Shown here piece by piece: positions 1,938-32,571 of a DNA stretch of 37,078 bases. The position numbers were made by a program, and so were the translations under genes. The stretch spans positions 1-37,078 of the forward strand of contig NZ_BMMS01000046.1 in assembly GCF_014646055.1 (NCBI RefSeq). Direction: 5' to 3'. The DNA is from Wenjunlia tyrosinilytica (lineage in GTDB: Bacteria; Actinomycetota; Actinomycetes; Streptomycetales; Streptomycetaceae). The notes under the pieces were generated by a model. It did not search any database. It saw nothing but the letters and a program-made list of their open reading frames with translations, and had not been told where the DNA came from. How positions within the stretch are numbered: position 1 is the first letter of the stretch; every line of letters starts with the position of its first letter.

Positions 1938-1964
1938 GCGTGATCACACCTCGGTTCGGTCAGG

Positions 1965-2580: not shown

Positions 2581-3779
2581 CAGGTGACCGGGAGGACGCA
2601 CGGGCTGTAGACCATCGAGTCGTCGCGGAAGGGAAGTTCGCCTACCGGCACCGCGAGCCGCAGACCGGGAATCCGGCGGAACAGCGTGCCGACGGCGACT
2701 TGGATCTCGACCCGTGCGAGGAACTTGCCCACGCAATTGTGAATGCCGTGGCCAAAGGTCATCGGGTCCGGTCCCTGCCTGCCGATGTCGAGACCGTCCG
2801 GCAGCGGGTACGCGTCCGGGTCGCGACCGCCGGACGGGGTCAGCAGGATGACGCCCTCGCCGGCCCGGATGAGCTGCCCGGCCACTTCGACGTCCTCGGA
2901 CGCGACTCTGCCGACACCGTACTGGAGCACGTTCTGGTGCCGCAGCAGTTCCTCGGCGGCCGACGGGAGCAGCGCGGGTTCCGCCGTCAGCCGCTCGGCC
3001 TGTTCCGGGTTCTCCAACAGGGCGAGCACACTCAGGGCGATGGAACTGGCGGTGGTGTCGAAACCGGCCGACAACAGCATCAGGCCGATGACGACGACCT
3101 CCTGGCGGGTCAGTTCACCGTCGCGGATCTCGTTGCCGGCCAGCTGCCCGAGCAGGTCGTCGCCCGGCTCGGCCTCCTTCGCCTCCACCAGCGCGTACAT
3201 GTACGTGAAAAGCTGGGTCATGGCCTCGGTCTGCTGCTCGGACGAGGCGTCACGCCCGGTCAGGGTCAGGACCCACTTCCCGAACCGGTCCCGGTCGGGG
3301 TAGGGAACGCCGAGGAACTCGCAGATCACCATGGCGGGCAGGGGCGAGGAGAAGCGGGCCACCAGGTCGGCGGACGGTGGGCCCGCCAGCAGGTCGTCCA
3401 GCAGCGCGTCGACCATCTCCTGGATGCGCGGACGCAGGCGCTCCGCCGCGCGGCTGGTGAACCAGGACGCGACTGTGCGCCGATAGCGGGTGTGATCGGG
3501 GGGGTCCATCGCGACGAAGGCACCCGGCTGGCGCTCGCCCGGAACGTATAGACGCGGATATCCGGGGTGCGTCATGTCGGAGCTGAAACGCGGATCCACG
3601 AAAATCTCACGGATGTCGTCGTATCTGCTGACGAGCCAGGGCGAGTCACCGGTGGGAAGGGTCACGCGGACGACCGGCGAACGCTCGCGTAACGCGCGGT
3701 ATTCGGTCGGCGGGTCCATCGGACACTCGGACGCGCGACCGAAGGGAAATTTAACCGGGTTGACCGGGGAAGAATTCAC
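2577..3779 (-). CDS. Cytochrome P450 monooxygenase (CYP107-like), likely polyketide tailoring
   Basis: A full-length bacterial class I P450 of 400 residues. It would hydroxylate or otherwise oxidise its substrate using electrons from ferredoxin. Visible landmarks are the N-terminal ECPMDPPTEY block, the WLVSRYDDIREIF segment, the C-helix motif DPPDHTRYRR, the I-helix oxygen-activation motif GFDTT, the K-helix ExxR in EELLRH, and the haem loop FGHGIHNCVGK with ligand Cys349. The GTG start is chosen because GGGAGG lies six bases upstream and the protein then has the usual family length; an open frame upstream of this lacks P450 sequence. It is followed directly by the P450 pseudogene and the loading-module PKS on the same strand, so a role in oxidising the polyketide is inferred from context. 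Confidence 0.93.
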   Translation of the reverse strand: MNSSPVNPVKFPFGRASECPMDPPTEYRALRERSPVVRVTLPTGDSPWLVSRYDDIREIFVDPRFSSDMTHPGYPRLYVPGERQPGAFVAMDPPDHTRYRRTVASWFTSRAAERLRPRIQEMVDALLDDLLAGPPSADLVARFSSPLPAMVICEFLGVPYPDRDRFGKWVLTLTGRDASSEQQTEAMTQLFTYMYALVEAKEAEPGDDLLGQLAGNEIRDGELTRQEVVVIGLMLLSAGFDTTASSIALSVLALLENPEQAERLTAEPALLPSAAEELLRHQNVLQYGVGRVASEDVEVAGQLIRAGEGVILLTPSGGRDPDAYPLPDGLDIGRQGPDPMTFGHGIHNCVGKFLARVEIQVAVGTLFRRIPGLRLAVPVGELPFRDDSMVYSPCVLPVTW

Positions 3780-4397
3780 GACATACCTCCCTGCATTCAA
3801 ACGCGACGGACCGCGCCGCGCACCGCACGAGAAATATAAGAGGTCGCACACATTCGCTGGAGGGGCCACATACCCCAGGCGGAAAGGTACCCGAGGGCAG
3901 AAAGAACCCGGGATTCCCTCGTCATCGTGCCCCCCGGCTGATCCGAGTGTCAACACAGGCACTCAGACACCGCAACGCACGTGGCAGCGAGCCCCGGGGA
4001 CAACCGATCGAAAGCCGCCACACGCCCGACTCTCGCATACCGCTCACACCACCATCTAAGCCCCCGTAACATGAAACATTTCATGTGCAACGATCGGCAG
4101 CATAGAAACAAATATGACCTTCCTGCCGGAATATGCAAATGATTGCACGTGCGGGAACATAAACGTGACATAGCTCATGTTGCCTCGGTGCGCGGGGTGC
4201 CCCCATCTTGGAGCCGGAAGGCGTCGTGCATCCGGGACCATCCGGAACGGCACGTGACAGCCGGCGAGCCCGGCCGGCGTCCTCGAATCGTGGCCGCCCC
4301 ATTCCTCCTGCGCGAAGAAGAACTCACAAGCGGCGGCAGAATTGTCCCGCTGACCAGTCCTGTCCTGCCGGCGGCACACCGGCGTACGTCTCTGTCC
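3780..4397. other. Divergent intergenic region, relatively AT-rich
   Basis: About 620 bases between the P450 start (minus strand) and the ccr remnant (plus strand). I see no convincing gene here. The part from about 4060 to 4165 is clearly richer in A and T than the surroundings and contains an 18-bp perfect palindrome (annotated separately) and a GCACGTGC palindrome near 4145. This is where promoters and operators for the P450-PKS transcript would be expected. From 4200 to 4400 the sequence is GC-rich again with short open frames that match nothing I recognise. Confidence 0.55.
4069..4086. promoter_or_regulatory. 18-bp perfect palindrome, candidate operator
   Basis: ACATGAAACATTTCATGT is an exact inverted repeat with 8-bp arms and a 2-base centre. 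It sits in the AT-rich intergenic region about 290 bases upstream of the P450 start. Its size and symmetry suit a dimeric TetR-type repressor, including the gamma-butyrolactone receptor family that often controls Streptomyces antibiotic clusters. No regulator gene is in the window, so the binding protein is unknown. Confidence 0.45.
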
Positions 4398-4740
4398 ATG
4401 CCCGCACCCGATCGACGGAGCCGACAGTTGCGAGAACCGGCGGACACCGCTGAGTCCAGCGACCCGGACCCCGCGGTGTCCCCCGCGCTCACGGTTCCCG
4501 ACAGTTACCGCGCGGCCGTGGTCTTCGCGGACGAAAGCGCGATGTTCAAGGACGTGAGCAGGCAGGACAAGGTCCCCACAATCCCTGCATGTCCGCGAGG
4601 TGCCCACCCCCCGGCCCGCGCCCGGCGAAGTGCTCGTGGCCGTCATGGCGAGTTCGATCGGCTAGGACACCGTGCGGAGCTCGCTCTTCGAGCCGCTGCC
4701 GACCTTCACGTTCCTCAAACGCCTCAGCCGCGCGGACGCG
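4398..4740 (+). pseudogene. ccr: Crotonyl-CoA carboxylase/reductase N-terminal remnant
   Basis: The translation contains VPDSYRAAVVFADESAMF. After a one-base frame slip near 4575 it continues as LHVREVPTPRPAPGEVL, then VAVMASSIG, a TAG stop at about 4663, and DTVRSSLFEPLPTFTFLKRL. This order matches the N-terminus of crotonyl-CoA carboxylase/reductase, where the stop replaces a Tyr or Asn codon. That enzyme makes ethylmalonyl-CoA, a PKS extender unit, by NADPH-dependent reductive carboxylation of crotonyl-CoA. Only about 100 of some 450 codons survive; the nucleotide-binding and catalytic regions are absent. The start at 4398 is the first ATG in frame and is not secure. The gene most likely once served the adjacent PKS cluster. 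Confidence 0.8.
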
Positions 4741-4848
4741 GCTTCGGCGTGATCACCCGCTTCCAGACCTGAAATCCATCGTTCCAGCTGCGCCCCCGGC
4801 GTGTCCGGTGCGCCAAGGGCTCCGAACAGGAAGCTGAGGTACATCGCG

Positions 4849-5607
4849 ATGAACGGCACCGACCCGACGAGCGACTGGATCCGGCGTTTCCATCGATCGG
4901 CGAGCGCCACGTCGCGGCTGGTGTGCTTTCCGCACGCGGGCGGTTCCGCGAGCTACTTCCACGGCGTCTCCAAGTCGTTGACGCCGGACACCGAAGTGCT
5001 GGCCGTGCAGTACCCCGGGCGTCAGGACCGGCGCGGGGAGCCGCTCCTCGACAGCGTCGGCGCAATGGCCGATGCGGCGTACGAGGCACTCGCGCCGTGG
5101 ACGGACCGTCCGTTGGGGCTGTTCGGGCACAGCATGGGCGCGTTGGTGGCGTTCGAGGTGGCCGCCCGGCTGGCGGGCGACGGGGTGGTACCGGTGGGGC
5201 TGTTCGCCTCGGGACGCCGGGCACCGTCCTGCTACCGGGACGAGAACGTACATCTGCGGGACGACGCGGGTGTCATGGCCGAGTTGAACCGGCTCGACGG
5301 CACGGACTCCCGGCTCCTGGACGACGCCGAGTTGCGGGAGATGATCCTGCCTGCGCTGCGCAGCGACTACCGCGCGGTCGAGACATACCACTACACCCCC
5401 CGGCCGACGCTGGTCTGCCCGGTGTGGGCGCTCGTCGGGGACGACGATCCCAGGACGACGCTGGACGAGGCGCGCGCGTGGAGCGAACACACCACCGGGC
5501 TGTTCGAACTGACGGTGTTCCCGGGCGGCCACTTCTATCTCAACGCACAGGCCGACGCCGTGGTCGACCTGGTGCGCTCGCGACTCTCGGCGCACCGCAC
5601 ACCGTGA
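4849..5607 (+). CDS. Type II thioesterase (PKS-associated editing thioesterase)
   Basis: An alpha/beta-hydrolase thioesterase of 252 residues, the usual length for type II thioesterases, which clear mis-primed or stalled acyl groups from carrier proteins. The N-terminal CFPHAGGSASYF supplies the oxyanion region, the nucleophile is Ser95 in GHSMGALVAFE, the acid lies in the VGDDDP segment and the catalytic His in FPGGHFYL. The ATG at 4849 is preferred over the GTG at 4801 because GAGG lies nine bases upstream of it and the extra residues do not look like thioesterase sequence. It begins about 110 bases after the ccr remnant and ends 18 bases from the convergent PPTase gene. Together with the KSQ PKS and P450 this is a standard macrolide-type cluster edge. 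Confidence 0.93.
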   Translation: MNGTDPTSDWIRRFHRSASATSRLVCFPHAGGSASYFHGVSKSLTPDTEVLAVQYPGRQDRRGEPLLDSVGAMADAAYEALAPWTDRPLGLFGHSMGALVAFEVAARLAGDGVVPVGLFASGRRAPSCYRDENVHLRDDAGVMAELNRLDGTDSRLLDDAELREMILPALRSDYRAVETYHYTPRPTLVCPVWALVGDDDPRTTLDEARAWSEHTTGLFELTVFPGGHFYLNAQADAVVDLVRSRLSAHRTP

Positions 5608-5625
5608 CATCGAGGATTTTCGCCA

Positions 5626-6363
5626 TCAGGTAGGCGGTGACGAGCTACCAGGGAACGCATGCGCTGAACTGGACCGATGCGTCCATGGTCGTTGCCCTGC
5701 GGGACGGTGCAGTGCGATTGCCGTGATGACGAGATCCTCGCGGCACATCCAGCGGCCGGCGATGGCTTCGAGGGCATTACCGGCCACCTCCGGCGCTGGG
5801 ACCAGCAGCCGGGCGGAAAAGGTGCCCGCGTCCGGCTCGATCTCGATCTCGGCTTCGTTGAAGTCCAGTTCCCGCCGGGTCAGCGGGTACCAGACCTTGA
5901 ACACCGACTCCTTGGCACTGAACAGCACCCGGTCCCAGTGCACTTGTCTTCGGGCGGACCCGAGCGCGCGGACCCATGCACGTTCCCGTTCCAGCGAGAT
6001 GACTTCCAGGATCCCTGCCGGTAAAGGGCCGTTGGGCTCGGCGTCGATGCCGAGCGCCATGAAGTCGGCCGAGCGCGACACTGCGGCCGCCCGGTATCCC
6101 GCGCAGTGGGTCATGCTGCCCACCACACCAACCGGCCACTGCGGGGCCCCGCGTGTGCTCGACAGCAGCGGAACCGGCGGCAGACCCAGCGCGCCCATCG
6201 CGCGGCGCGCGCACCACCGAGCGGTCGCGAATTCACTGCGGCGGTCCGGCACAGCCAGGGCGATGGCGGCCTCCTCTTGCGGGTACAGGCCCTTCAGCGC
6301 CGCTTCCGGGTCGTCGAACGCCTCGGCCGCGGCGACCGGCGCGGGCAGGAGTTCCTCGATCAC
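5626..6363 (-). CDS. 4'-phosphopantetheinyl transferase, Sfp/EntD type
   Basis: Transfers the phosphopantetheine arm of CoA to a Ser of carrier proteins, converting apo- to holo-ACP. The 245-residue protein carries the family signatures: SMTHCAGYRAAAVS, the Mg-binding ALGIDAEPN, and FSAKESVFKVWYPLTRRELDF, with Asp of GID and Glu of KES as metal ligands. The GTG start is supported by GGGAGA five bases upstream and begins VIEELLPAP, typical of Streptomyces homologues; the ATCG after it overlaps the stop of the upstream metallophosphoesterase (GTGA), so the two were translationally coupled. All motifs are intact, so unlike several neighbours this gene looks functional and could activate the PKS carrier proteins. 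Confidence 0.92.
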   Translation of the reverse strand: MIEELLPAPVAAAEAFDDPEAALKGLYPQEEAAIALAVPDRRSEFATARWCARRAMGALGLPPVPLLSSTRGAPQWPVGVVGSMTHCAGYRAAAVSRSADFMALGIDAEPNGPLPAGILEVISLERERAWVRALGSARRQVHWDRVLFSAKESVFKVWYPLTRRELDFNEAEIEIEPDAGTFSARLLVPAPEVAGNALEAIAGRWMCREDLVITAIALHRPAGQRPWTHRSSSAHAFPGSSSPPT

Positions 6364-6899
6364 GGCGCTCTCCCGGAGTCCGGCCGGGGAGGAATCCGAC
6401 GCGGATGACTGCGGTCCGGCCAGAGCTTCCACTCGCGCGGGCAGCCGATCGAGACCTCCTCTAACCTCACCCCGTCGTACCAGGTCGTGCGGGGAAAGTG
6501 CGGGTGGTGCCCGTACACCACCGCGACAGCACACAAGCGCGTGTGCCCGCCGGCGGTCGGTTCCGTGCCGCACCACTGCGCGAACTCCGGGTAGCGCAGA
6601 ACGTCGGTCGGCCCGCGGACCAGCGGAAATTCGACCAGCCGCAGGTAGCGCTTCTCACCGCGCAGGTCGACCGGATCGCCGGGATGTGTCCACAACTCGT
6701 GGTTCCCCGGCGCCCGCACCGCCTTGGAGAAACGGCCGGAAAGCGGGGTCAGCGCCCACTCGACGTCCTCGAAAATCTCCGCGACATCGCCCGCGACGGT
6801 CAGCCAGTCGGAGTCGGACTTGGTGCGGAGAGAACCGACAATGGAACCATTCTCCTGGTAAGCGACGTTCAGGTCACTCACAGCCAATAAAATCCCCAC
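6360..6899 (-). pseudogene. Metallophosphoesterase with large in-frame internal deletion
   Basis: The N-terminus (LLAVSDLNVAYQE, AGDVAEIFEDVEWAL, APGNHELWTHPGDPVDLRGE) and C-terminus (PTDVLRYPEFAQWCGTE, VYGHHPHFPRTTWYDGV, EVSIGCPREWK) match the calcineurin-like phosphoesterases that often precede PPTase genes in Streptomyces. About 100 residues between RLVEF and PLVRGPTD are missing, leaving 179 instead of roughly 280. The first metal motif is DLN where the family has DxH, and the last motif is GHHPHF in place of the usual GHLHI. The missing part holds further metal ligands. The frame stays open, so a short protein may be made, but phosphatase activity is unlikely. The fourth codon is TTA, rare in Streptomyces. 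The GTG start at 6899 is inferred from the alignment with family N-termini. Confidence 0.75.
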
Positions 6900-7274
6900 G
6901 CCCCGGACAGCCCCCTCACACCCGTTGCCGGAGCTGTACTGAAGTCGCCCTGTGACAACCGGGGTCACTCTATCGTGCAAGCGGCACCATGCCCCGGCGG
7001 TGCAGCTTGCAAACCGGGTCGGGCGCGGACGAGAGGGAATTGAAATCGCGTCAGCCCGAGGCGGTCCGTGCCATCCCATGACCTCGACGGGGGTTGTGGG
7101 CTGGCCGAAGAAGGACGCGGGCACCGCGTCCGCCCCGACCTCTCCCCTGCCGACATCCCCCATCCGACGCCGCCGCACTGACGTCGGCCCGGGCGCGTCG
7201 GCCCGGGCCGACGCGCAACACCGGCCGGCGCGCCCTGAAGCCGCCCCCGCGGCGGAGCCCTGAAGGTGTTGCTG
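6900..7274. other. Intergenic region with no recognised gene
   Basis: About 375 bases between the metallophosphoesterase remnant and the end of the DUF2236 gene. Open frames here give low-complexity Arg/Pro/Ala-rich translations without family resemblance. The only clear structure is the long palindrome at 7193-7216, preceded by a partial direct copy of its left half (CGTCGGCCCGGGC from about 7182). Confidence 0.5.
7193..7216. terminator. 24-bp perfect palindrome, probable terminator of the prenyl operon
   Basis: Bases 7193-7204 are the exact reverse complement of 7205-7216, centred on CCCGGG. As RNA this gives a very stable all-GC-rich hairpin (about 10 bp with a 4-base loop). It lies about 60 bases beyond the stop of the minus-strand DUF2236 gene. 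There is no T tract, which is common for Streptomyces terminators. Confidence 0.5.
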
Positions 7275-8438
7275 CTACTGGCTGATGGTTGCCGACGGCG
7301 GAGTCCAACGGCTTTTGGGCGGGATGGTGCCGCTGACTCCGAAGTCGTTCTTGAGCTGTTCGGGGATGGCGTAGTGCATGACGCGGCCGCGGGTGAGGGA
7401 CGACAGTTCGAAGACGCTTGTCAGGTGTCCGAGTCGGTCCAGGGCCCAGCCCGCCAGGGGTGAGCGGTCCTCAATGGTTTCCAGCAGCCCCAGCAGGGCG
7501 GGGGCTGCCTTGACGACGGTGTCCCAGGTGGTGCGGGGGACCTGCAGCCAGTCGGCGCAGGTGTCACCGATCAGGTAGCGGATCAGGGCGGAGACGATCG
7601 GGTCGAAGAAGGTGCCGGGCACGACTTCCTCGTAGAGGTCGATGAGCTGGCGGGTGAGCTGGGCGCCTTCCTCGCTGGGGCCCATGTGGCGAGTCATGTA
7701 CAGGTCGGAGAACTCGCGGGCTGACTGCAGGTCCTTGGGGACATGGTCCTGGTCGATGCCGAGGATGGCGCCGACCACCCGCCAGGCGTAGTAGTAGGCC
7801 TCGGCGCCTTCGTTGCTCATGTGGATGCCAAGGCGGTGCAGGGCATCGAGGACCTGGATGGAGAACATCATCTGCCCGCCGATCATGTCCTCCTGACAGA
7901 TCGGCGTGCCCAGGGCGGCGGTGTCCCAGCGGTCCTCCCGCTTGAGGTGGTGGCGGATGGAGGCATGCAGCAGCCGCACTTTCTGGGCCGCGGGGATGAA
8001 ACGACTGCCGGCTTCGAACGCGCCGGGCTGCATGAGGTAGACGGTGAACTGGCCCGTCTCAGCCATCCGTTTGGAGGGGTACTTCAGCGAATGGGTGGAC
8101 GACAGCAGCTTGGCCACGTGGGGCAGGACGTAGCAGGCGGGCATCGAGGCGAACGAGAGCGCGGTGGAGATGTGCACGTTGTTGTCGATGAAGAACAGCC
8201 GTGCCTTCTCCATCTCACCCCAGTCCACCCAGGCCGGGGGCGTGCTGGTCTCGTTCAGGTACTCGCGGGCCACGTCCGGCAGCCCCTCGGGAAGCTCCTG
8301 CCCGACGGTGGAGACGTAGCGCATGAGCGTGTTGAACGTGCCGACCTCTCCGCGCTCGAACAGCGTCGCCACAGTCGCGTCGGCGAGTTCGTCCCCTTCG
8401 GTGCGCAGGGCGTCCATGGACGCCGCGGTGTAGGTCAT
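7275..8438 (-). CDS. DUF2236 rubber-oxygenase / MpaB-like haem oxygenase
   Basis: A 387-residue protein of the latex-clearing-protein/MpaB family (DUF2236), whose characterised members bind haem b and cleave double bonds of isoprenoid chains: Lcp acts on polyisoprene and MpaB' on a farnesyl side chain. The central region reads KVRLLHASIRHHL, where the His after RLL corresponds to the proximal haem ligand region, followed by PICQEDMIGGQMMFS and EGAEAYYYAWRVVGAILG, typical helical blocks of the family. There is no signal peptide or obvious membrane anchor. The ATG start follows a strong GGAGGAG. It is the last gene of an operon, 24 bases after a polyprenyl diphosphate synthase, so an isoprenoid made by that enzyme is the natural candidate substrate; this is inference. 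Confidence 0.85.
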   Translation of the reverse strand: MTYTAASMDALRTEGDELADATVATLFERGEVGTFNTLMRYVSTVGQELPEGLPDVAREYLNETSTPPAWVDWGEMEKARLFFIDNNVHISTALSFASMPACYVLPHVAKLLSSTHSLKYPSKRMAETGQFTVYLMQPGAFEAGSRFIPAAQKVRLLHASIRHHLKREDRWDTAALGTPICQEDMIGGQMMFSIQVLDALHRLGIHMSNEGAEAYYYAWRVVGAILGIDQDHVPKDLQSAREFSDLYMTRHMGPSEEGAQLTRQLIDLYEEVVPGTFFDPIVSALIRYLIGDTCADWLQVPRTTWDTVVKAAPALLGLLETIEDRSPLAGWALDRLGHLTSVFELSSLTRGRVMHYAIPEQLKNDFGVSGTIPPKSRWTPPSATISQ

Positions 8439-8462
8439 GGTGCTCCTCCGGTGGGGTGGCGG

Positions 8463-9515
8463 TCAGTGAGTGCGGGTGGCTGAGAGGGTCGCCAAGGCAG
8501 ACAGCGCGCGGCGGGCCTCGGTGGTCAGATCGGCGTCGGCCAGGGCGTCGTGTGCTTCACGCAGCCGGGCGGTGATCATGTCTTCGACGTGGGCGACGGC
8601 GCCGGTGCGGTGAGCGATCTCCCGGGCCCGTTCCACCTGCTGCTCACTGAGGTTCGCCTGCCCGAGCAGGTGGTGCAGCTCGCGGTGTTCCGCCTTGGTG
8701 GCGGACGTGAGCGCGTGGGCCATCAGAGCGGTGGGCCGGTTCCCGGCCAGGTCATCGGCCGGGTCCTTGCCGGTCTGCTCAGGATCACCGAACAGGCCCA
8801 GCAGGTCATCGCGCAGCTGGAACGCCTCGCCCAGCGGCACGCCGTAGTCGCTGTACGACCGCAGCAGCCGCGGTGGGGCACCGGCGAGAAGGCCGCCGAT
8901 CTGCAAAGGGTGTTCGACGGTGTATTTGGCGGTCTTGTAGCGGATGACCTTCACCGACGCGTCCGGGTCCGGCTCGGCTCCGGTGCGCAAGACCTCCAGG
9001 CACTCACCGGCCACCAGTTCGCGGGCCAGGACCGCCCACAGAGGCCGGGCCCTGCTCAGGTAGGCGCCGGGCAGGCCGGAGGTGGTGAACAGCTGCCCGG
9101 CCATCGACATCAGCAGATCACCCACCAGCATGGCCAGAGCCCGGGCGCCGGCCTTCGGCCGCGCATGATCGGTGAGGACCTCGCGCAGGGCGATGTGCCC
9201 GGTGGGCCGGCCGTGCCGGGTGCGGCTGTGGTCGATCAGGTCGTCGTGCACGACGGCGGCCGCGTGGACCAACTCGATCGCGCTGGCGGCGCTTACCAGC
9301 GCCTCGCTGTCGGGCTGCCCGGCCCCGCGCCAGCCCCAGTAGCAAAACGCCGCCCTGAGCCGCTTGCCGTGCCCGGCCGCGGCATGAAGCTGCTCGGCGA
9401 CCGGCGCCAGACAGGCGTCGATGTCGGCCAGAGCCTGCGCTTCCGCGGTAACGAACTTGCTGAGGACCTGGTCGATGCGCTTCTTCAGTAACGCGTGCTC
9501 TTCCCGTTCACTCAC
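8463..9515 (-). CDS. Polyprenyl diphosphate synthase (trans-isoprenyl type)
   Basis: Condenses isopentenyl diphosphate onto an allylic diphosphate to build a linear prenyl chain. The 350-residue protein has GKRLRAAFCYWG, the first Asp-rich motif HDDLIDHSRTRHG, the KTAKYTVEHPLQIG helix that binds substrate, and the second Asp-rich motif FQLRDDLLGLFGD followed by GKDPADDLAGNRPTAL. All catalytic aspartates are present. Product chain length cannot be read with confidence. The GTG start (VSEREEHALL) is chosen because it overlaps the stop of the upstream 94-codon gene by a few bases and gives the usual family N-terminus. It is the middle gene of a three-gene operon with the DUF2236 oxygenase downstream. 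Confidence 0.92.
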   Translation of the reverse strand: MSEREEHALLKKRIDQVLSKFVTAEAQALADIDACLAPVAEQLHAAAGHGKRLRAAFCYWGWRGAGQPDSEALVSAASAIELVHAAAVVHDDLIDHSRTRHGRPTGHIALREVLTDHARPKAGARALAMLVGDLLMSMAGQLFTTSGLPGAYLSRARPLWAVLARELVAGECLEVLRTGAEPDPDASVKVIRYKTAKYTVEHPLQIGGLLAGAPPRLLRSYSDYGVPLGEAFQLRDDLLGLFGDPEQTGKDPADDLAGNRPTALMAHALTSATKAEHRELHHLLGQANLSEQQVERAREIAHRTGAVAHVEDMITARLREAHDALADADLTTEARRALSALATLSATRTH

Positions 9516-9792
9516 TGCGGCTTCCCGCCTGGGTGCGAGCGGTGACGGTGCGGGCGAGGACCTCCAGGTGAGTGGGCGGCGCGGCCGCATGCCGGCCCAG
9601 GAGCAGGCGGCCGCGGGCCTTGGTCTCCTCCTGGCCGTCCACCAGAAGGTCCCCGATGTCGGCGCGGCGCAGCAGGCCGCTGACGCCGCCCACCGCGCTG
9701 CTCAGCCCGCACACGGCCAGATCGGCAAGGCCGGCCACCAGGGCCAACGTGTCTTCGGTCAGGCCCGGCTTGCGGCCGTCATGGTGTGTCAC
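9508..9792 (-). CDS. Small unknown protein, first gene of the prenyl synthase operon
   Basis: A 94-residue product that I do not recognise. The first two thirds (from DTLALVAGLADLAVCGLSS to LLRRADIGDLLVDGQEETK) look like amphipathic helices, with no Cys motif, signal peptide or clear membrane segment; the C-terminus is basic. The GTG start has GGGAGA a few bases upstream and the stop overlaps the start of the polyprenyl diphosphate synthase gene (GTGAGTGA), so the two are translationally coupled. That coupling suggests a partner or regulatory subunit of the prenyl synthase, although no homology supports this. Confidence 0.7.
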   Translation of the reverse strand: MTHHDGRKPGLTEDTLALVAGLADLAVCGLSSAVGGVSGLLRRADIGDLLVDGQEETKARGRLLLGRHAAAPPTHLEVLARTVTARTQAGSRSE

Positions 9793-10196
9793 AGCATGTC
9801 TCCCTGCATGGCAAGGCCCGCCCCGGCTCCGGCCGGTCGGCCCGGAGCAGCGCGTAGCGGCGTTCGGCACAACACGATTCGAGTCTGGCCACCGAACACG
9901 CCCCAGGCAGCCCATTTGCACCATCGAGTGATCTTCTTCAAAGATCCGCACAAGCAGTAAGGGGCACCTGTTACGGGACAAGAACCTGATCACGGCTGGT
10001 GCTTCGAGCGGCCGGCTGAAGCCCGCCGAGCGTCCGCGCCGAGCACTGTCGGCACCCACCACCGGTACGCGTGATCCGACGGCTCGGTCCGAGGCCGGGC
10101 CCCGACCTTCTGGCTCCGCGGGCCGAGGGACCCGGCCTCGGGCACCTTCTGCGCATGCGCCTTCCCCAGGGTGTGCTTACACTCATAAGCGGCAGA

Positions 10197-10220
10197 GCCT
10201 TCGGTCATTGATCCGAAGGC
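10197..10220 (+). promoter_or_regulatory. Inverted repeat in glycosyltransferase leader
   Basis: GCCTTCGG at 10197-10204 pairs exactly with CCGAAGGC at 10213-10220 around an 8-base loop. It lies about 80 bases before the glycosyltransferase start. It could be an operator or a leader hairpin; there is no T run to mark it as a simple terminator. Confidence 0.4.
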
Positions 10221-10281
10221 GACATCGAACCGGCTCCGACTCGGGCTGCCGCGCCACCCGCGGTGAATGGCCGACGAGTTT

Positions 10282-10296
10282 GGAGGTGCCACCTCC
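10282..10296 (+). promoter_or_regulatory. Hairpin that covers the ribosome-binding site of the glycosyltransferase gene
   Basis: GGAGGTGCCACCTCC ends directly before the ATG. The Shine-Dalgarno GGAGGT (10282-10287) pairs perfectly with ACCTCC (10291-10296) around the 3-base loop GCC. As RNA the ribosome-binding site would be hidden in a 6-bp GC-rich stem, so translation should need melting of the stem or an activator. Seen directly in the sequence; the regulatory role is inferred. Confidence 0.55.
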
Positions 10297-12909
10297 ATGT
10301 CAGTCCTCTGGGGTGTTTCCTTCGACGCCACGCCGTTGTCCGGGGTCGTCGTGGAATTCATCAAGGTCGCGAAGATCTTCCATTCCCGCGGCTACCGCGT
10401 CCACTTGGATCTCGGTTACGACATCAAGGCGGACAAGAATTCCTTCTTCCGCCCCTACACCGACGAGGCCGCCCTGCTGCCGGACTGGGTGCGCCTGGAC
10501 AGGGTCGAGGGGATCGACACGGTTCCCGGGTACGACGCCGCCGTGGTGGAGGCCGTGCTCCGCGAAGTCGTTCAGCAGGGGGACGGTGAGCGGTGGCGGC
10601 CGGCCGTCGCGTCGCTGACCGGCTGCCTGAGCGACCGGATCCTGGCGACGTGGGAACGGCTCGGGGTGTCCCTCGTCGTGGTGGAGAACGGCACACTTCC
10701 GGAGAACATCGCCTACACCCAGGCCCTTTACCAGGCCATCGAGGAATACGGCAGACGCCACCGGCTCGGCCGGTTCGTTCTGTGGCGCGATCACGACCTG
10801 ATGTGGCAGAGCGAGCCGAGTGCGGCCAAGTACGGCGCCTTCCCCTACGCGCACACGCCGAAGCCGCGGGATTCCTTATTCATCCACTACGCGGCGCTTC
10901 ACCACGAAGCGCTGCGCCGTACCGTGGCCTGGGCACCGGACCTGCGCAACATCGATGTCCTGCCGAATACCTTCGCCCACCGTCCCGCCCGCGTCGACGA
11001 GCGCGGCACCGCGTTCCGCCGCGACCACGGCATTCCGGATCAGGTGCCGCTCATCGCCCGTTTCACGCGGATCATTCCGCAGAAACGCATCGACAGGGAC
11101 ATCCATCTGCTGGCCGCGCTGGCCGACCGCACCGACGCCCACCTGTTCATTGCCGGAGACCCCGCGGAAGCCCCCGCCGAGCACGCCGCACTCGTCGCGC
11201 TGGCCGAGGCGCTGAAGGTCGGCGACCGAGTGGTGTTCGGCGGCCGACTGGCCCCGCACGAACGGGACGTCGGACGTTGTGCCGGAGGCGGGTACTCGGT
11301 CCGGGACCTGCTCGCACACGCCGACGTCGCGTCCTTCATGACCTCGCGGGACTACGAGAGCTACGGCAACCCGATCGGCGAGGCCATCGCCTCCCGCGTC
11401 CCCTACGTCACCACCCGGTACGACCTCTATGACGCCGTCTACGCGAGCAAGGGCTTTCGCGCTCCCGTGCTGGACACCCGGGCCCACGATCTGCCCGCGG
11501 GAGTCTTCCTGGACGAGGTGGCGGAACTGCTGACCGATGAAGGGCGGCGGATGCGGACGGCCGAGCACAACTACAGGCTGGGAGAGCGCCATCTTGGCCG
11601 GGCTCAGGCGGAAGGGCTGCTGGACCGGCTGTTCCTGACGCCGATGGCGGACCGGACCAGGATGAGCGTCGTCGTGCCGGTGTACAACGAGGCGGGCAGC
11701 CTGCCCACGACCTTGGAAGCGCTGTACCACCAGCGCGGCCCCGAGGGGCTGCTGGAGCGGTCGCTGTACGAGGTCGTGCTGGTCGACAACAACTCCACCG
11801 ACGACACGGCCGCCGCCGTCCGGCGTTTCGCCGCCGACCATCCCGATCTGGCGATCCACCTGCTCACCGAACCGGAGCAAGGCGTCTCCTGTGCCCGCCG
11901 GACCGGCATGGAGTTCGCGAGCACCCGCAGCCGGGGCCGTGGCGTCCGCGACGACGGGCGCTTCTACCTGGTCTCGGCGGACGCGGACTGCCGAGTCGCC
12001 CCGGACTGGCTGTGGCAGCTCTACACCGCGATGGAGTCCGGGAAGGCCGCCATCGGCGTGTGCGACTACACCTACGCACCGGAGCACTTCGCTCACCGGC
12101 CCCGCCTGTGGGAGGTGATCTCCCGCACCCTGCGCTGCCGGGCGGTGACCTTCGCGCTGTTCGGCGGCTTTCCCGACGGCAAGGGCTTCGCCGTGGACCG
12201 GGACGTCCACGACGCGGTGGGCGGCATCGAGGTCTTCTACCAACTGCGCGACGGGCAGTTCGTCAACCACCTCTCCGACGACTGGGACTTCGGCATCAAG
12301 GTGCGCAACTCGGGGGAGGACATCGTCTACGCACCCCTGTCCCGGGTGGAGATCAACCCCCGGAGGGTCGACCACGCCCTCGACGAGGTGATCACCGGCC
12401 GGGCATACGGCTCGGACGGTGTCATCGTCATGCGCGACATCCGAGCCCAGCGGTCGGCGGTGGACCAGGGCAGGGACCTCACCGAAGCCGAAGCGCGCGA
12501 GGCATGGGCGTTCTCCGTCAAGGACTTCGTCCCGAAGAACACCGTTCTGCCGGTTCTGCTGAGCCCGTCGCTGCTGGAGGACCACGGGGTGGCCGAGTTC
12601 TTCGGCCGCTCTCTGGCCCAACGCCTGGCGTGCCGGGTGGAGGAGGTCAAGGACGAGATGCGGATGATCGACTTCGCCCCGATCCACTCGTACAAGACAC
12701 CGTCGTACCGCCTGTACTTCGAGTTCGCCGACGAGATCTTCGCGCGGCTGCGCGCGACCGTGGGTGAGGACGTCGGACACCCGCCGCCGCTGCCGGCGTG
12801 CCTGCGTGACGTGCCACCGGAACGCTTCGCCGAATTCGTCCGGTACTACTGCGAGGACCGCGAGTCCGGGGAGGCGCACAACTACTTCGGAAACGGCGGG
12901 GTGTTCTGA
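10297..12909 (+). CDS. Two-domain glycosyltransferase (GT4-like + GT2-like)
   Basis: An 870-residue fusion of two glycosyltransferases. The N-terminal half (about 1-455) is GT-B fold, GT4-like: LSGVVVEFIKVAKIF near the start, LPNTFAHRPARV, a nucleotide-binding RFTRIIPQKRIDRDI segment and the E-x7-E pair in DYESYGNPIGEAIAS. The C-terminal half (from about 460) is GT-A fold, GT2-like: MSVVVPVYNEAGSLPTTL, VVLVDNNSTDDT, the metal site in SADADC and an acceptor-side DDWDFG. A roughly 150-residue tail follows. The ATG at 10297 is preferred to one at 10267 because GGAGG lies nine bases upstream. Codon 194 is TTA, so expression should depend on the bldA tRNA. The stop overlaps the ATG of the radical SAM gene (TGATGA). 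No signal peptide or membrane segment is visible. The sugar donor and acceptor are unknown. Confidence 0.87.
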   Translation: MSVLWGVSFDATPLSGVVVEFIKVAKIFHSRGYRVHLDLGYDIKADKNSFFRPYTDEAALLPDWVRLDRVEGIDTVPGYDAAVVEAVLREVVQQGDGERWRPAVASLTGCLSDRILATWERLGVSLVVVENGTLPENIAYTQALYQAIEEYGRRHRLGRFVLWRDHDLMWQSEPSAAKYGAFPYAHTPKPRDSLFIHYAALHHEALRRTVAWAPDLRNIDVLPNTFAHRPARVDERGTAFRRDHGIPDQVPLIARFTRIIPQKRIDRDIHLLAALADRTDAHLFIAGDPAEAPAEHAALVALAEALKVGDRVVFGGRLAPHERDVGRCAGGGYSVRDLLAHADVASFMTSRDYESYGNPIGEAIASRVPYVTTRYDLYDAVYASKGFRAPVLDTRAHDLPAGVFLDEVAELLTDEGRRMRTAEHNYRLGERHLGRAQAEGLLDRLFLTPMADRTRMSVVVPVYNEAGSLPTTLEALYHQRGPEGLLERSLYEVVLVDNNSTDDTAAAVRRFAADHPDLAIHLLTEPEQGVSCARRTGMEFASTRSRGRGVRDDGRFYLVSADADCRVAPDWLWQLYTAMESGKAAIGVCDYTYAPEHFAHRPRLWEVISRTLRCRAVTFALFGGFPDGKGFAVDRDVHDAVGGIEVFYQLRDGQFVNHLSDDWDFGIKVRNSGEDIVYAPLSRVEINPRRVDHALDEVITGRAYGSDGVIVMRDIRAQRSAVDQGRDLTEAEAREAWAFSVKDFVPKNTVLPVLLSPSLLEDHGVAEFFGRSLAQRLACRVEEVKDEMRMIDFAPIHSYKTPSYRLYFEFADEIFARLRATVGEDVGHPPPLPACLRDVPPERFAEFVRYYCEDRESGEAHNYFGNGGVF

Positions 12910-14393
12910 TGAGCACAGCGTACGAGCGGACACTGGACTCGCTCAAGGAGACGGACCCGTCCTGGCCCACCCCGGCCGTGGTCGACGCTCTGGCCGCGCC
13001 GGGCAATCGGCACCTGCTCACTTACGTCGCCGAGGACCCGTTCGGAGCCCACGTCTTTCCCGGCAATGTCGAGGGCTACGCGCCCGAGGACTTCCTTGCC
13101 GACCTGCAGGCACAGCTGACCGCGACCGCCCCCATCCACCTGTGGGCCTACATCCCCACCTGTGCCTACCGCTGCCACTTCTGCCAGTACCCCGTGGTGC
13201 TGGTCAAGGGCAGCCCGCAGGCCGCCGACGCCAAGGCCGGCCAGTGGGTGGACTGGAACATCCGGGAGGCCCGGCTCTGGCTTCGGCGGGTGCCCGCCTT
13301 GGCGACCGCGCCGATCGGCGAGTTCAACGTCTTCGGCGGAACACCGTCACTGCTGCCCCCGGACGCCCTGCGCCGGCTGATCGGCTTCTACCGGGAGAAC
13401 TTCGCGTTCGGTCCGGGGACGGCCATCCGCGTCGAGGGCGACCCGACCACCCTCACACCCGACAAACTCGAACTGCTGGCCGCGCTGGGGTGCACCAAGA
13501 TCTCCTGCGGAGTGCAGTCCTTCGACGACCCGGTTCTGCGCCAGTGCGGCCGCCGGCACAGCGCCCGAGCCGCTCTGGACTTCCTGCGCAACGCCCGGCG
13601 CACCGGATTCGAATGGATCAGCGTCGATCTGATGTACGGTCTGCTGGACCAGACGGTGGACAGCGTGCGGCGAGACCTGGATGTCCTTCTGGAGCACAGC
13701 CCCACCGCGGCGGTGTGCACGAAGCTGCACCTGAGGTCGTACTCCGACACCCGGACCGGCGTCACCGGCGTGCAGCCCGCGGCCTGGCAACTGCCCGACC
13801 ACCGGGAGCGGCTGCGGCGCAACGGGCGCCACTGGCCCTCCCTCGGCGAGCAGTACCAGATGCGGGAGATCCTCACCGACGGTTTGCGCAGGCACGGATA
13901 CACCGAGCACCCGACCATGTACTTCGCCCGCGACGGCCTCGGGCCGGAGACCTGGAAGTCCATCATGGTCGACCAGGACAAGCAGGAGGCCGAGGTGGCG
14001 ATCGGACTCGGGGGAAGTTCGAGCTGCCGCCGATCCGAGGCGATCACGGAGGTGGACTGGCGGCGCTACTCGGAGGCGGTCGATGCCGGCCGGGTACCGC
14101 TGCGGTCCGCGACCCGCTTCACGGCCCCGGCTCAGGAGGCGCGTGCCGTCAAGATGGCCCTGACCAGTCTGCGCCCCCTGGACGACCGGCTGCACCGACA
14201 ACGCCACGGCGGCCGATCCCTGTTCGACGAGCCGTGGCGCACCCGATTCGACTCGCTGGCCGAACGCGGACTGCTGGCAGTCGACGAGCGCATGGGCGAG
14301 GTGCGACTGACCAGCGATGGCGAAGTGCTGGTCGAGGCGGTCATCAACACCGAACTCGACAACGCCCAGGCCGAACGCCACCGCTGCCCGTAG
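12909..14393 (+). CDS. HemN/HemW-like radical SAM enzyme
   Basis: A 494-residue radical SAM protein of the coproporphyrinogen-oxidase-like (HemN) superfamily. The cluster motif CAYRCHFC (Cys85, Cys89, Cys92) binds the SAM-activating 4Fe-4S. It is followed by FNVFGGTPSLLPPDAL, the GGTPS region for SAM, VEGDPTTL, KISCGVQSFDDPVLRQCGRRH and WISVDLMYGLLDQT, all in the order expected for HemN-like enzymes. A C-terminal HemN-type domain ends near 480 (MGEVRLTSDGEVLVE). Relatives include HemW haem chaperones and class C radical SAM methyltransferases/cyclopropanases of natural-product clusters. Being coupled to a double glycosyltransferase rather than to haem genes argues against a housekeeping role. 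The substrate is unknown. Confidence 0.88.
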   Translation: MSTAYERTLDSLKETDPSWPTPAVVDALAAPGNRHLLTYVAEDPFGAHVFPGNVEGYAPEDFLADLQAQLTATAPIHLWAYIPTCAYRCHFCQYPVVLVKGSPQAADAKAGQWVDWNIREARLWLRRVPALATAPIGEFNVFGGTPSLLPPDALRRLIGFYRENFAFGPGTAIRVEGDPTTLTPDKLELLAALGCTKISCGVQSFDDPVLRQCGRRHSARAALDFLRNARRTGFEWISVDLMYGLLDQTVDSVRRDLDVLLEHSPTAAVCTKLHLRSYSDTRTGVTGVQPAAWQLPDHRERLRRNGRHWPSLGEQYQMREILTDGLRRHGYTEHPTMYFARDGLGPETWKSIMVDQDKQEAEVAIGLGGSSSCRRSEAITEVDWRRYSEAVDAGRVPLRSATRFTAPAQEARAVKMALTSLRPLDDRLHRQRHGGRSLFDEPWRTRFDSLAERGLLAVDERMGEVRLTSDGEVLVEAVINTELDNAQAERHRCP

Positions 14394-14472: not shown

Positions 14473-17346
14473 TCACGGGCAAGGACTGTATCCGCCTCCG
14501 CGGCGCCGCTCGAGCGCGGCGAGGGCGCGGGAAGTCGCGAGCGGGGCGTCCGCGGCGCTGCGGATGACTTCTTGAGCGCTTTTCGACGCCTGCGTGTCCG
14601 GATGGTCCTCGCCCAGGACGTCCCGTCGACGCTTGAGCGTGGAGCTCAGGAGGGAGCGCGCCGCGGTGTGCTGTCCTGCGCACCACGTCGCGAGAGCGAC
14701 GTTTCCGGACGAAGCGAGGGTGTCCGGGTGGTCGGGGCCGAGAATCCGCCGGCGTTGCGACAGCACCTCGTTCATGAGGGCGAACGCCCTGTCACGTGCC
14801 CCTGAACGGAAGAGGTCGACCGCGTAGTCGCCGGCGGAGCCGAGAGTGTCCGGGTGTGATTCGCCCAGGATTCTTCGACGCTGTTCCAGAGTCTGCTCCG
14901 CGAGTGCCAACGCCGCCTCAGTCTCACCGGCGTGGATGAGGTCGTTGGTCGCATTGCTCATGGAGGTCAAAGTGTCGGGGTGATCGGGACCAAGGACGCG
15001 CCGCCGCCGGTCAAGGGTGTCCTCGTTCATCCAGCGGGCGGCGGCGTGTTCGCCGAGGTGGAACAGGTCGTTGGCGAGGTTCCCGGCCGAACTGAGTGTG
15101 TCCTGGTGGTTCTCGCCCAACAGGCGCCTGCGCCTTTCCAGAGTGTCCTCGTCGCGAGCGCGGGCCCCGGTGTAGTCACCGGTGAGGAAGAGGCAGATCC
15201 CCATCTTGCTCGAAGACGTCAGCGTGTCGGGGTGATCGGGGCCGAGGATCCGCGTACGTCGGGCCAGGGTGTCCTCGTTGAGAGCCGATGCAGCCCGGAA
15301 CTCGCCCGCGTGCACCAGGTCGGTGACAAGGTTGCTCGCCGATCGGAAGGTCTCCTGGTGATCCTCGCCGAGGATGCGCCGCCGTCGCGCCAGAACCTCC
15401 TCGTTGAGGGCGCGTGCGGCCGCGTATTCGCCGACGTTGAAGGAGTCGGTGGCCAGATTGGTGGCGCACATCATGGTGTCGGGGTGGTCATCACCGAGCA
15501 CTCGGCGATAGCGCGCCAGTGTTTCCTCGCGCATGACCCTGGCAGCCGCGTAGTCGCCCAGCCAGTGCAGGTCGTTCGCCCATAGGTGCAGAGCCCACAG
15601 GGCATCGACGTCATCGGGACCGTGGCGGGTGACCAGGACGTCATGGGCTCGGGTCACCAGGTCCAGCGACGACTGGACGTCACCGCGCCGTGCGATGAAC
15701 TCGGCCGAGTCCAGGAACAACGCACGCGCCTGCCGGTCCCGGCTGACGATGAGATCGAGGCTGCGCACGTGCGGCAGCAGCGCGCTGTACTGGGCCCAGT
15801 TCTCCGGGTTTCGCGGCAGGCCGGGTCTGCAGGCGGCCACGAGGCGCTGGGCGATCGCGGTCCGCTCCGCTTGCTCGCCTTCGTCCATTCGGTCACGCAC
15901 GATGAGCCGGCCCAAGCGGTGCAGTTGCATCATTCGGGGCTCGACCTGGGCCAGCCCGTACCGCCGGATCCTTCTGACCGCCTGGTAGAACTGCAGCTCG
16001 TCGCCGATGACTCCCGCGCCGTGCTCGGCACCGGCCGCGAGCAGGTCGAGCGGGATTGGCTCGGGGGCCAGGGCCGCGGCCGTCTGCAGCAGGCCCAGCG
16101 CCGTCGGGTCTTCTTGGCGCAGGCGGTCCATGGCCAGTGCCCAACTGGCGGCGAGTGAGGCGGGACAGTCCTCGGGCGCGCCATCGGCGAGGACCGACGC
16201 CGACTGCTTGCGCAGTAGCTCAAGGTACTTCTCGACGGGCATGCCGGTTTCCGCGATGGTGCTGGCGGCCTGGGCCAGGGCCAGTGGCAGATGGTCCAGG
16301 TAGTCGGCGAGGGTACGGGCCGACCGGGTGTCCAGTTGCGGCAGCCGCCGTCGCAACAGTTCCAACGACTCGTTGACATGCAGGGCGTCGACCTTGACGA
16401 GTTCGCCGTATCCCTCCCAACCCGGATCGCGGGAAGTGATCACCACATGGCCATGACCGCTCGGCGGGACAAGACAGGCCGCGAGGCCGCGGTCGGTCAC
16501 ATTGTCGAGGATCAGGAGCCAGCGACGGCGCTGGGCGAGGGCCGCCACTACACGTTGGGCCGGGCTCTGTGAGTCTGTCCTGGGGACCACGCCAAGCCGG
16601 TCGCCCAGCACAGCGAGGCGTTCATTCGCCGTCACCGCGTTCTCCGCGGGAACCCACCATACGATGTCGTAGTCCTCGATTCGCTGGTACGCGTACTCGG
16701 TGATGAGTTGCGACTTGCCCACCCCGCCAGTGCCGTGCACGACCACGACACTGGGTGTGCGGACCGGGACCGGTCGGCTGAGCCGCTCCCCCAATTCCCT
16801 GAGGCTTTCGCTCCGCCCGATGAAGTGCCTGCTCCTGATGGGCAGCTCCCAGATCTCGGGCAGCTCCCGGGGGAAGACAGCGGCCGCTTTTCCCATGTCG
16901 AGCGCGCAGACGCGGCCGTTGGGAGACGCCGACGGTGCCCCGCCGACCGCGGCGGCCAGCCGTTTCGTCGCGGTGTCCTCGTCCGTGTCGGCCACATCCA
17001 CATAGGCGATCGGGCGCAGGAGCGGTGGCAGGGCGCACTGCTTGACGCGGATCCCGACCAGCTTCTTCATGTGCAGCGCTGACGTCCACTCGTACTCGCA
17101 CCAGCGTGAGCGGAAGTACTCTTCCGAATAGATCGCGACAACCGTCCGGGCGTGCGACAGTTGTGTGTTGATCCAGGCGACGAAGTTCCCGCCCGGGCGG
17201 GAGTCCCACTCCTGGATCCGCACCTTGTGGCCCAAGGATTCCAGGCTTTGCGCAACCCAGGAGGCCCACTCCAGGTCGAGCGCCGTGTAGGAGACGAAGA
17301 CATCGCAGTGCTCTGAAGAAGTATCTGAAGAAGTATCGGTTTTCAC
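14473..17346 (-). CDS. TIR - NB-ARC - TPR protein (STAND/NLR-like)
   Basis: A 957-residue protein with three parts. Residues 14-135 are a TIR domain (DVFVSYTALD, SHARTVVAIYSEEYF, WCEYEW, where Glu86 aligns with the catalytic Glu of NADase TIR domains). Residues 175-440 are an NB-ARC/STAND ATPase with Walker A GTGGVGKS at 205-212, Walker B LLILDN at about 277-282 and a GLPL-like LDHLPLALAQAA. The last third is eight exact 42-residue TPRs of the kinesin-light-chain type (GxDHPDTLxS...). This is the plan of bacterial NLR-like sensors and also resembles the large TPR protein of the FxSxx-COOH peptide system, but no such peptide, FxsB or FxsC gene is in the window. The GTG start follows the stop of the isomerase gene without a gap. 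Ligand sensing by the TPRs and TIR-driven NAD depletion are inferred. Confidence 0.88.
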   Translation of the reverse strand: MKTDTSSDTSSEHCDVFVSYTALDLEWASWVAQSLESLGHKVRIQEWDSRPGGNFVAWINTQLSHARTVVAIYSEEYFRSRWCEYEWTSALHMKKLVGIRVKQCALPPLLRPIAYVDVADTDEDTATKRLAAAVGGAPSASPNGRVCALDMGKAAAVFPRELPEIWELPIRSRHFIGRSESLRELGERLSRPVPVRTPSVVVVHGTGGVGKSQLITEYAYQRIEDYDIVWWVPAENAVTANERLAVLGDRLGVVPRTDSQSPAQRVVAALAQRRRWLLILDNVTDRGLAACLVPPSGHGHVVITSRDPGWEGYGELVKVDALHVNESLELLRRRLPQLDTRSARTLADYLDHLPLALAQAASTIAETGMPVEKYLELLRKQSASVLADGAPEDCPASLAASWALAMDRLRQEDPTALGLLQTAAALAPEPIPLDLLAAGAEHGAGVIGDELQFYQAVRRIRRYGLAQVEPRMMQLHRLGRLIVRDRMDEGEQAERTAIAQRLVAACRPGLPRNPENWAQYSALLPHVRSLDLIVSRDRQARALFLDSAEFIARRGDVQSSLDLVTRAHDVLVTRHGPDDVDALWALHLWANDLHWLGDYAAARVMREETLARYRRVLGDDHPDTMMCATNLATDSFNVGEYAAARALNEEVLARRRRILGEDHQETFRSASNLVTDLVHAGEFRAASALNEDTLARRTRILGPDHPDTLTSSSKMGICLFLTGDYTGARARDEDTLERRRRLLGENHQDTLSSAGNLANDLFHLGEHAAARWMNEDTLDRRRRVLGPDHPDTLTSMSNATNDLIHAGETEAALALAEQTLEQRRRILGESHPDTLGSAGDYAVDLFRSGARDRAFALMNEVLSQRRRILGPDHPDTLASSGNVALATWCAGQHTAARSLLSSTLKRRRDVLGEDHPDTQASKSAQEVIRSAADAPLATSRALAALERRRGGGYSPCP
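14614..15621 (-). repeat. Eight tandem 126-bp units encoding TPR repeats
   Basis: Within the NLR-like gene, eight consecutive 42-codon units run without any length change from 15621 down to 14614, followed by a partial ninth. Each protein unit begins G-x-D/S-H-P-D-T (the first is the divergent GPDDVDAL) and ends R-R-R-x-L. The units share a consensus but differ in many positions, so this is an old, selected array rather than a fresh expansion. Confidence 0.85.
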
Positions 17347-28317: not shown

Positions 28318-28410
28318 AAAGGAGAACCACGCGCACCGCCCGCACCCAGTCCTTGCACTCCCACGCCTGGCAGGTGCAGTCCCTGCTGCTCGCCATCGCG
28401 GGCCTCCTAC
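28314..28410 (+). pseudogene. narJ: Probable narJ N-terminal trace
   Basis: An ATG overlapping the narH stop (ATGA) opens MKRRTTRTARTQSL and then HAWQVQSLLLAIAG. The position, the coupling to narH and the basic start followed by a QxxSLLL helix fit the nitrate reductase chaperone NarJ. Similarity ends after about 30 codons. The identification rests mostly on gene order. From here to 28600 I recognise nothing else; narI is not seen. Confidence 0.45.
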
Positions 28411-30284: not shown

Positions 30285-30319
30285 TCCACCCGCCCCACCG
30301 CACAAGGGACTTCACCACC

Positions 30320-31534: not shown

Positions 31535-31565
31535 CCGAGCCTGAAACCCAGCAAAGGGGACCATC

Positions 31566-32567: not shown

Positions 32568-32571
32568 AGTC

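Follow-up and report, generated by a model that had tools for sequence, protein, structure and literature searches.

A patchily spread two-gene cassette of a GT4-GT2 glycosyltransferase and a HemN-fold radical SAM enzyme in actinomycetes and Proteobacteria, with a modified small glycoside as its candidate product

The window analysed here is the whole stretch of 37,078 nucleotides (positions 1-37,078, forward strand) of contig NZ_BMMS01000046.1 from Wenjunlia tyrosinilytica, whose genome comprises 8.49 Mb in 172 contigs. At 10297-14393 it carries a pair of genes encoding a fused glycosyltransferase (GT) and a radical S-adenosylmethionine (SAM) enzyme, hereafter rSAM, which together are the subject of this study (Table 1). 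From its first ATG the open reading frame (ORF) of the GT spans 10267-12909 (+) and encodes 880 amino acids, and the second ATG at 10297 marks the start of the aligned GT family, in whose alignment Met1 is nearly invariant. Pfam domains on the GT were Glycos_transf_1 and Glyco_trans_1_4 followed by Glycos_transf_2, and on the rSAM protein Radical_SAM only. The stop codon of the GT and the start codon of the rSAM share one base (TGATG), as they do in 44 of the 52 copies compared, so that the ORFs, the domains and the overlaps all confirm the GT4-GT2 plus radical SAM arrangement proposed in the initial annotation of this DNA. To the left, the nearest recognisable gene (polyprenyl synthase, 8463-9590) lies on the strand opposite to the pair, and to the right the gene at 14473-17346 converges on it, so the two genes form a unit of their own. 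No transmembrane-like hydropathy stretch was detected in either protein over 19-residue windows, the maximum mean values being 1.33 in the GT and 1.12 in the rSAM.

Table 1. Features of the glycosyltransferase-radical SAM pair in the window
Feature	Position	Strand	Evidence
GT4 module of the fused glycosyltransferase, residues ~1-445	10297..11631	+	Pfam Glycos_transf_1 and Glyco_trans_1_4; GT4 folds; conserved motifs
GT2 module with DAD and DDWD motifs	11635..12849	+	Pfam Glycos_transf_2 (E 1.5e-22); motifs conserved
Conserved C-terminal tail CEDRESGEAHNYFGNGGVF of the GT2 module	12850..12906	+	lowest-entropy 19-residue window; pLDDT <50
HemN-fold radical SAM enzyme (rSAM), 494 aa	12909..14393	+	Pfam Radical_SAM; structural model; tree
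CX3CX2C cluster motif C85-C92, clade signature LW[SA]YIP[TC]CxYxCxFC	13161..13184	+	22/22 rows

The two genes had been treated as one system in the initial annotation, and their distribution bears this out. With only the rSAM as query, a scan of the GTDB species genomes recovered 46 loci, and the GT gene was located directly upstream of the rSAM at 45 of them. The hosts were Streptomyces, Actinacidiphila, Amycolatopsis, Lentzea, Kibdelosporangium, Actinokineospora, Nonomuraea, Kineosporia and others, together with a metagenome-assembled genome of Solirubrobacteraceae and the alphaproteobacterium Pseudochrobactrum. Within a sample of 394 genomes from the class of the window, the GT2 module occurred in six and the rSAM in the same six (four of them from one genus), and among 297 genomes of the order of Pseudochrobactrum the rSAM was found in one, Pseudochrobactrum itself. 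When 72,556 plasmids were scanned, the top ten records for the rSAM and the top ten for GT2 were the same: three plasmids of Paraburkholderia, one each of Cupriavidus taiwanensis, Rhizobium jaguaris, Sinorhizobium garamanticum and Pseudochrobactrum, and three of Duffyella, with symbiotic plasmids of Mimosa rhizobia among them. The Pseudochrobactrum plasmid copy has both rSAM and GT2 broken across several frames. The range of the cassette covers Actinomycetota and three classes of Proteobacteria. GT4 and GT2 form a single ORF at 43 of the 46 genome loci and also in Paraburkholderia phymatum and S. garamanticum, whereas C. taiwanensis, R. jaguaris, Duffyella and Pseudochrobactrum have a gene for each. 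Among the 17 rows common to the GT and rSAM alignments, 15 of them actinobacterial, the pairwise distances of the two proteins were correlated (r 0.89, Mantel p 5e-4 for the 15 actinobacterial pairs). Since 44 of 52 copies carry the overlap and the genes co-occur across phyla, the pairing is beyond chance, and the pair, its gene order and its linkage define a conserved but patchily spread two-gene system.

Clustering of the flanking ORFs, not all of which were annotated, revealed no other gene family that keeps its position next to the pair from genus to genus; this clustering used crude gene calls, in which a reverse-strand shadow ORF of the rSAM was counted as a gene in 21 loci. The flanking families that recurred were response regulators, short-chain dehydrogenases/reductases, transporters, or neighbours common within Amycolatopsis or within Streptomyces. 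With no fixed neighbour family across genera, the cassette looks autonomous and horizontally spread, including between actinomycetes of soil and bacterial symbionts of plants. One divergent gene flanking the GT (family 11) was shared by five Streptomyces and one Nonomuraea (loci L012, L013, L014, L015, L016 and L054), and its member at L016 is a major facilitator superfamily transporter. The single rSAM locus at which no GT was found, L047 of Streptomyces sp. BK340 (~9848-11014), has a partial rSAM match covering residues 155-483 and is possibly a decayed cassette. A phage or defence link of the pair was also considered and rejected, as PADLOC gave no match for either protein, PHROG gave none for the rSAM and one weak GtrB-like match on the GT2 domain, and one scan of viral_contigs with the rSAM alignment returned no relative.

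The alignments for structure work comprised 26 GT and 21 rSAM rows from loci other than those on plasmids. The GT4 module retains the [ED]x7E motif and a WRDHDLMW block; the Ex7E motif reads ESYGNPIGE, with the first Glu replaced by Asp in L041, P. phymatum and S. garamanticum. Its predicted fold matched many GT4 enzymes at Z 23-31 (maximum 30.9), and together with the Ex7E motif this places the module in GT4. The GT2 module, with its Glycos_transf_2 domain at E 1.5e-22 and a DxD motif, belongs to GT2 and conserves SADADC and LSDDWDFGI, in which ADADC is invariant in the GT alignment. Trehalose transferase (TreT), sucrose-phosphate synthase, BshA and MshA resemble the cassette GT4 in fold (Z 23-30) at an identity of only 11-19%, HepE and others score the same or higher, and unlike all four the cassette GT4 carries a fused GT2 module. 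Trehalose transferase as the specific homologue of the GT4 module was rejected, as its fold match cannot be separated from those of other GT4 enzymes.

The GT ends in a tail, CEDRESGEAHNYFGNGGVF, which is its most conserved 19-residue window: the mean entropy is 0.082, compared with 0.287 in the next window, and the cross-phylum identity is 93%, compared with a GT mean of 46% (19 fused rows). All 52 copies end in the same Phe (-NGGVF) and 14 of the 19 tail positions are invariant, and where GT4 and GT2 are separate genes the tail stays on the GT2 gene. A cause at the DNA level, such as the gene overlap or a ribosome-binding site, was ruled out because the tail codons vary synonymously among the 52 copies and the tail is kept in copies that do not overlap; the tail is selected at the protein level. 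It is predicted to be disordered, with a predicted local distance difference test score (pLDDT) below 50, which is weak evidence because an invariant segment gives AlphaFold no covariation. Either the tail covers the GT2 site as a lid, or it acts on or in the partner enzyme. Compared with the glycyl-radical motif, it bears only a loose R-x-S-G likeness and no such Pfam domain was detected at E 0.001, and this candidate was discarded.

The rSAM carries the CX3CX2C motif at C85, C89 and C92 in all 22 aligned rows. Its structural model (pLDDT 83) found HemN (1olt) as its best fold match, at Z 32.4 with a root-mean-square deviation of 3.1 over 415 residues, and the next match at Z 15.0; this fold together with the cluster motif assigns it to the HemN-fold radical SAM superfamily. 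The label 'HemN-like' given by the initial annotation is apt. The NCBIfam matches to STM4012, HutW, hemN, HemZ and HemW were all far under their cut-offs. The best of them, STM4012 (NF006067), reached 114.8 bits against a cut-off of 380, HemN (TIGR00538) 91.5 against 324.95 and HemW (TIGR00539) 86.1 against 205.4, whereas HemW of the source genome itself, encoded elsewhere, scored 236.8; a separate HemW over the curated cut-off was present in six of the seven cassette genomes checked. A tree was built from the window, 16 of the 46 genome loci and 5 plasmid loci (22 cassette rows in all) together with 13 references exclusive of class C enzymes, with the HemN label of L080 assigned by eye. In it the cassette rows formed one group at 100/100, apart from HemW (99/98), HemN and STM4012, in a topology whose deep branches are long and meet. 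The rSAM is a clade of its own relative to these references, and a housekeeping HemW or HemN identity was rejected on the cut-offs, the separate HemW and the tree. The pair is conserved and its rSAM falls outside the HemW clade, and therefore neither of the two outcomes that the initial annotation had named as fatal to its proposal was encountered.

The same annotation hinted at class C methyltransferase or cyclopropanase chemistry, and here the evidence divides. The profile match of the rSAM to the class C enzyme NocN (E 8e-28) comes near that to HemN (E 2.7e-32), and the NocN positions Glu132, Gly157, Arg171, His173 and Asp196 are retained in all 22 rows, along with the cluster cysteines Cys40/44/47 of NocN/NosN (9p2u; PMC12871812). 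Set against this, the alignment ends at cassette residue 265, NocN Arg153 is replaced by Lys197, NocN Tyr96 aligns to Phe142, and Trp79 stands in all 22 rows at the position that stacks on SAM II, occupied by Tyr34 in NocN and Tyr56 in HemN. As this Tyr is described as conserved among HemN-like methylases (PMC12871812), the rSAM falls outside the class C radical SAM methylases by that marker. The aromatic swap may nevertheless retain SAM II stacking and hence the binding of two SAM molecules, and class C methyltransferase chemistry is a possibility suggested by the sequence. In contrast to NocN/NosN, no peptide substrate gene was seen with the cassette. HemN shares with the rSAM the whole-chain fold, the CX3CX2C motif and the aligned radical SAM domain, and is not paired with GTs; STM4012 in Deinococcus adjoins the STM4011/4013/4014/4015 genes, while the cassette rSAM adjoins GTs and forms a separate tree group.

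The catalytic motifs of the GT4, GT2 and rSAM modules are all retained. A radically modified small glycoside is the most likely product, and our leading explanation, put forward tentatively and at somewhat less than an even chance, is that the two genes are an autonomous, horizontally mobile biosynthetic cassette for a radically modified small soluble glycoside, plausibly based on trehalose. A soluble GT4 and then a soluble GT2 would assemble a small glycoside, starting from an acceptor that most cells have at hand, and the HemN-fold rSAM would act afterwards, or between the two GT steps, to make a radical modification on it. Trehalose would be the most likely acceptor. The cassette would need no partner gene in actinomycetes because these make trehalose, and in several Proteobacteria genes for trehalose uptake, breakdown or synthesis accompany it. 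An OtsA-like gene was present in all seven cassette genomes tested (one over its curated cut-off), TreY in five of the seven and TreS over its cut-off in five of the seven, so trehalose is probably available in each of the seven, as it is in many bacteria.

The neighbours of the cassette in several lineages point in this direction. In Duffyella the cassette follows treC of a treR-treB-treC set by 148 bases on the same strand, with TreB and TreC over their NCBIfam cut-offs. Duffyella plasmid L060 has two annotated copies of treB (10370-13468 and 29216-30637), one of them in the treRBC set before the cassette. In Pseudochrobactrum, sugar ATP-binding cassette (ABC) importer genes, ThuA (sharing 68.6% identity with rhizobial proteins that carry a trehalose-utilisation annotation) and a Gfo/Idh/MocA protein (ThuB-like) are followed 15 bases on by the cassette. 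The distance from the rSAM to a downstream treS is 5.1 kb in P. sabiae, and in P. phymatum treS is NifA-dependent like the pair. The treS gene was found on five of the 72,556 plasmids, three of which, all from Paraburkholderia, have the cassette, and treC on 76, at least three of which have it among the 20 of the 76 matches that were listed. The initial annotation noted no accompanying transporter, which stands for the surroundings of the pair in the window and does not hold for several other lineages, where sugar-uptake or trehalose genes lie directly upstream. Upstream neighbours were also counted at 46 loci (45 rSAM-found genome loci and the window), of which 14 had a co-directional gene within 300 bp. 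Four of these 14, about half of which were domain-searched, are sugar uptake or breakdown genes: GH43 glycosidases at Lentzea L028, a MalK-type importer at Lentzea L031, an importer at Kineosporia L042 and the genes at L049 already described. A sensor kinase and an epimerase-like protein are among the rest. Trehalose as acceptor or precursor is one reading consistent with these observations.

Several observations weigh against a trehalose-based product. The trehalose links amount to one lineage each (three plasmids of Duffyella, three of Paraburkholderia and the one genus Pseudochrobactrum), a transposase separates the cassette from treS in P. sabiae, and the binding protein and the ThuB-like protein of Pseudochrobactrum reach no trehalose-specific model. 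What lies upstream differs among the actinomycetes, and only four of the 14 co-directional neighbours at the 46 loci are genes of sugar uptake or breakdown; the L028 genes resemble arabinan enzymes rather than trehalose genes, and the importer permease of L042 reaches a galactofuranose model. OtsA is so common that it discriminates little, and the GT4 fold match is generic, with HepE, BshA and PimA outscoring trehalose transferase. Besides, nodule trehalose was unchanged in the nifA mutant of P. phymatum (PMC8305402).

Published expression data cover the pair in P. phymatum. Nodules of the nifA mutant showed log2 fold changes of -4.98 for Bphy_7707 and -4.07 for Bphy_7706, in a table that also holds the nif genes and treS (-7.53) (PMC8305402), and Bphy_7707 changed by -3.6 in an rpoN mutant (PMC5979394, which lists it by annotation under cell-envelope genes). 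The pair is NifA-dependent in P. phymatum nodules. The two locus tags occur in the full text of open-licence PubMed Central (PMC) papers solely in these two reports, whose passages listing the genes propose no function for them. The nod genes lie near the cassette on the Paraburkholderia symbiotic plasmids. Judged against the consensus sequences, one sigma-54-like match at 10 of 11 positions lies upstream of the GT in S. garamanticum, the best match in P. phymatum is 8 of 11, and one NifA-type site was found upstream of the GT in R. jaguaris only.

These data bear on an account in which the product is a nutritional mediator made by bacteroids under NifA and recovered through sugar importers and ThuAB-type enzymes, in parallel with rhizopines. 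The NifA and rpoN effects, the location near nod genes on symbiotic plasmids of Paraburkholderia and the thu-type uptake genes ahead of the cassette in Pseudochrobactrum all speak for it, yet P. phymatum has no clear NifA or sigma-54 site upstream, and as actinomycetes are most of the hosts found, a symbiotic role would be secondary; we regard the account as distinctly improbable. The pair might otherwise decorate a macromolecule or a lipid-linked glycan, such as a surface polysaccharide or a protein, whose sugar or lipid the rSAM would modify. Surface glycans are essential to symbionts, pathways for such glycans typically contain GT2 and GT4 modules, and the best NCBIfam matches of the GT, though far under cut-off, are exopolysaccharide-type GTs; the cell-envelope label of Bphy_7707, an annotation in PMC5979394, fits as well. 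This is nonetheless an unlikely explanation, as the partly annotated clustering shows no flanking family that stays with the pair from genus to genus, and the neighbours in Duffyella and Pseudochrobactrum are genes for disaccharide uptake and breakdown. That the rSAM could be a haem enzyme (HemW or HemN) standing beside a GT by chance finds some footing in its HemN fold and sub-threshold haem-family matches, and is scarcely credible in view of the margins below the cut-offs, the separate HemW in six of seven genomes, the 100/100 group and the co-occurrence with the GT in the same six of 394 genomes.

The tail raises a different alternative, in which the rSAM modifies it as a substrate carried on the enzyme, in the manner of a ribosomally synthesised and post-translationally modified peptide, or in which the tail docks the rSAM in an obligate GT-rSAM complex. 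Its standing as the most conserved window (93% against 46% across phyla), its predicted disorder, the same end residue in 52 of 52 copies, its selection as protein, its retention on GT2 when the GTs are separate and the one-base gene overlap in 44 of 52 copies would all suit such a role. However, the C-terminal tails of GT-A enzymes can act as lids over their own active site, as in GT6 enzymes, and a lid of this kind would account equally for the conservation; no conserved flanking family could be a protease or an exporter, and the low pLDDT is weak evidence for disorder. We consider this alternative unlikely. In a bolder form, which is a long shot, the tail CEDRESGEAHNYFGNGGVF with its free carboxylate would serve the HemN-fold enzyme as an integral substrate or as an arm that bears the radical. 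The two proteins would then work as one machine, with the GT activated or modified by the rSAM, yielding a new class of trehalose-derived metabolite common to actinomycetes and nitrogen-fixing nodule bacteria.

Apart from the cassette, the window holds several other genes. The gene convergent with it (14473-17346, -) encodes a TIR, NB-ARC and TPR protein whose match to the TPR model of FxSxx-COOH systems reaches 669.7 bits against a cut-off of 300, and flank clustering did not show it as a conserved neighbour of the cassette elsewhere. The region 3-9590 (-) encodes a polyketide synthase-like fragment with ketosynthase and acyltransferase domains (KS-AT), a PptT-like phosphopantetheinyl transferase, an MpaB-type oxygenase and the polyprenyl synthase, which is nearest to mycobacterial farnesyl/geranylgeranyl diphosphate (FPP/GGPP) synthase and encapsulin-cargo models, under their cut-offs. 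Genes of low-oxygen metabolism lie close together at 26869-33492, for a nitrate reductase beta-like protein, an amino acid permease, ornithine carbamoyltransferase and an amino acid (carbamate-type) kinase.

No description of a GT4-GT2/rSAM system was recognised in the open-licence PMC papers searched, in keeping with the statement of the initial annotation that no system of this form was known, and the cross-phylum cassette of a GT4-GT2 enzyme and a HemN-type rSAM is genuine and, in those papers, undescribed. Nor did the papers on lentztrehalose found there, judged from titles and abstract openings, include one on its biosynthesis. No named product was found for the two-gene pathway, which is small enough to be cloned and tested whole. 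The cassette could reveal a radical reaction of HemN type that is new and acts on a carbohydrate, and it could give a function to a listed NifA-dependent gene pair, with a trehalose-derived metabolite as its possible product.

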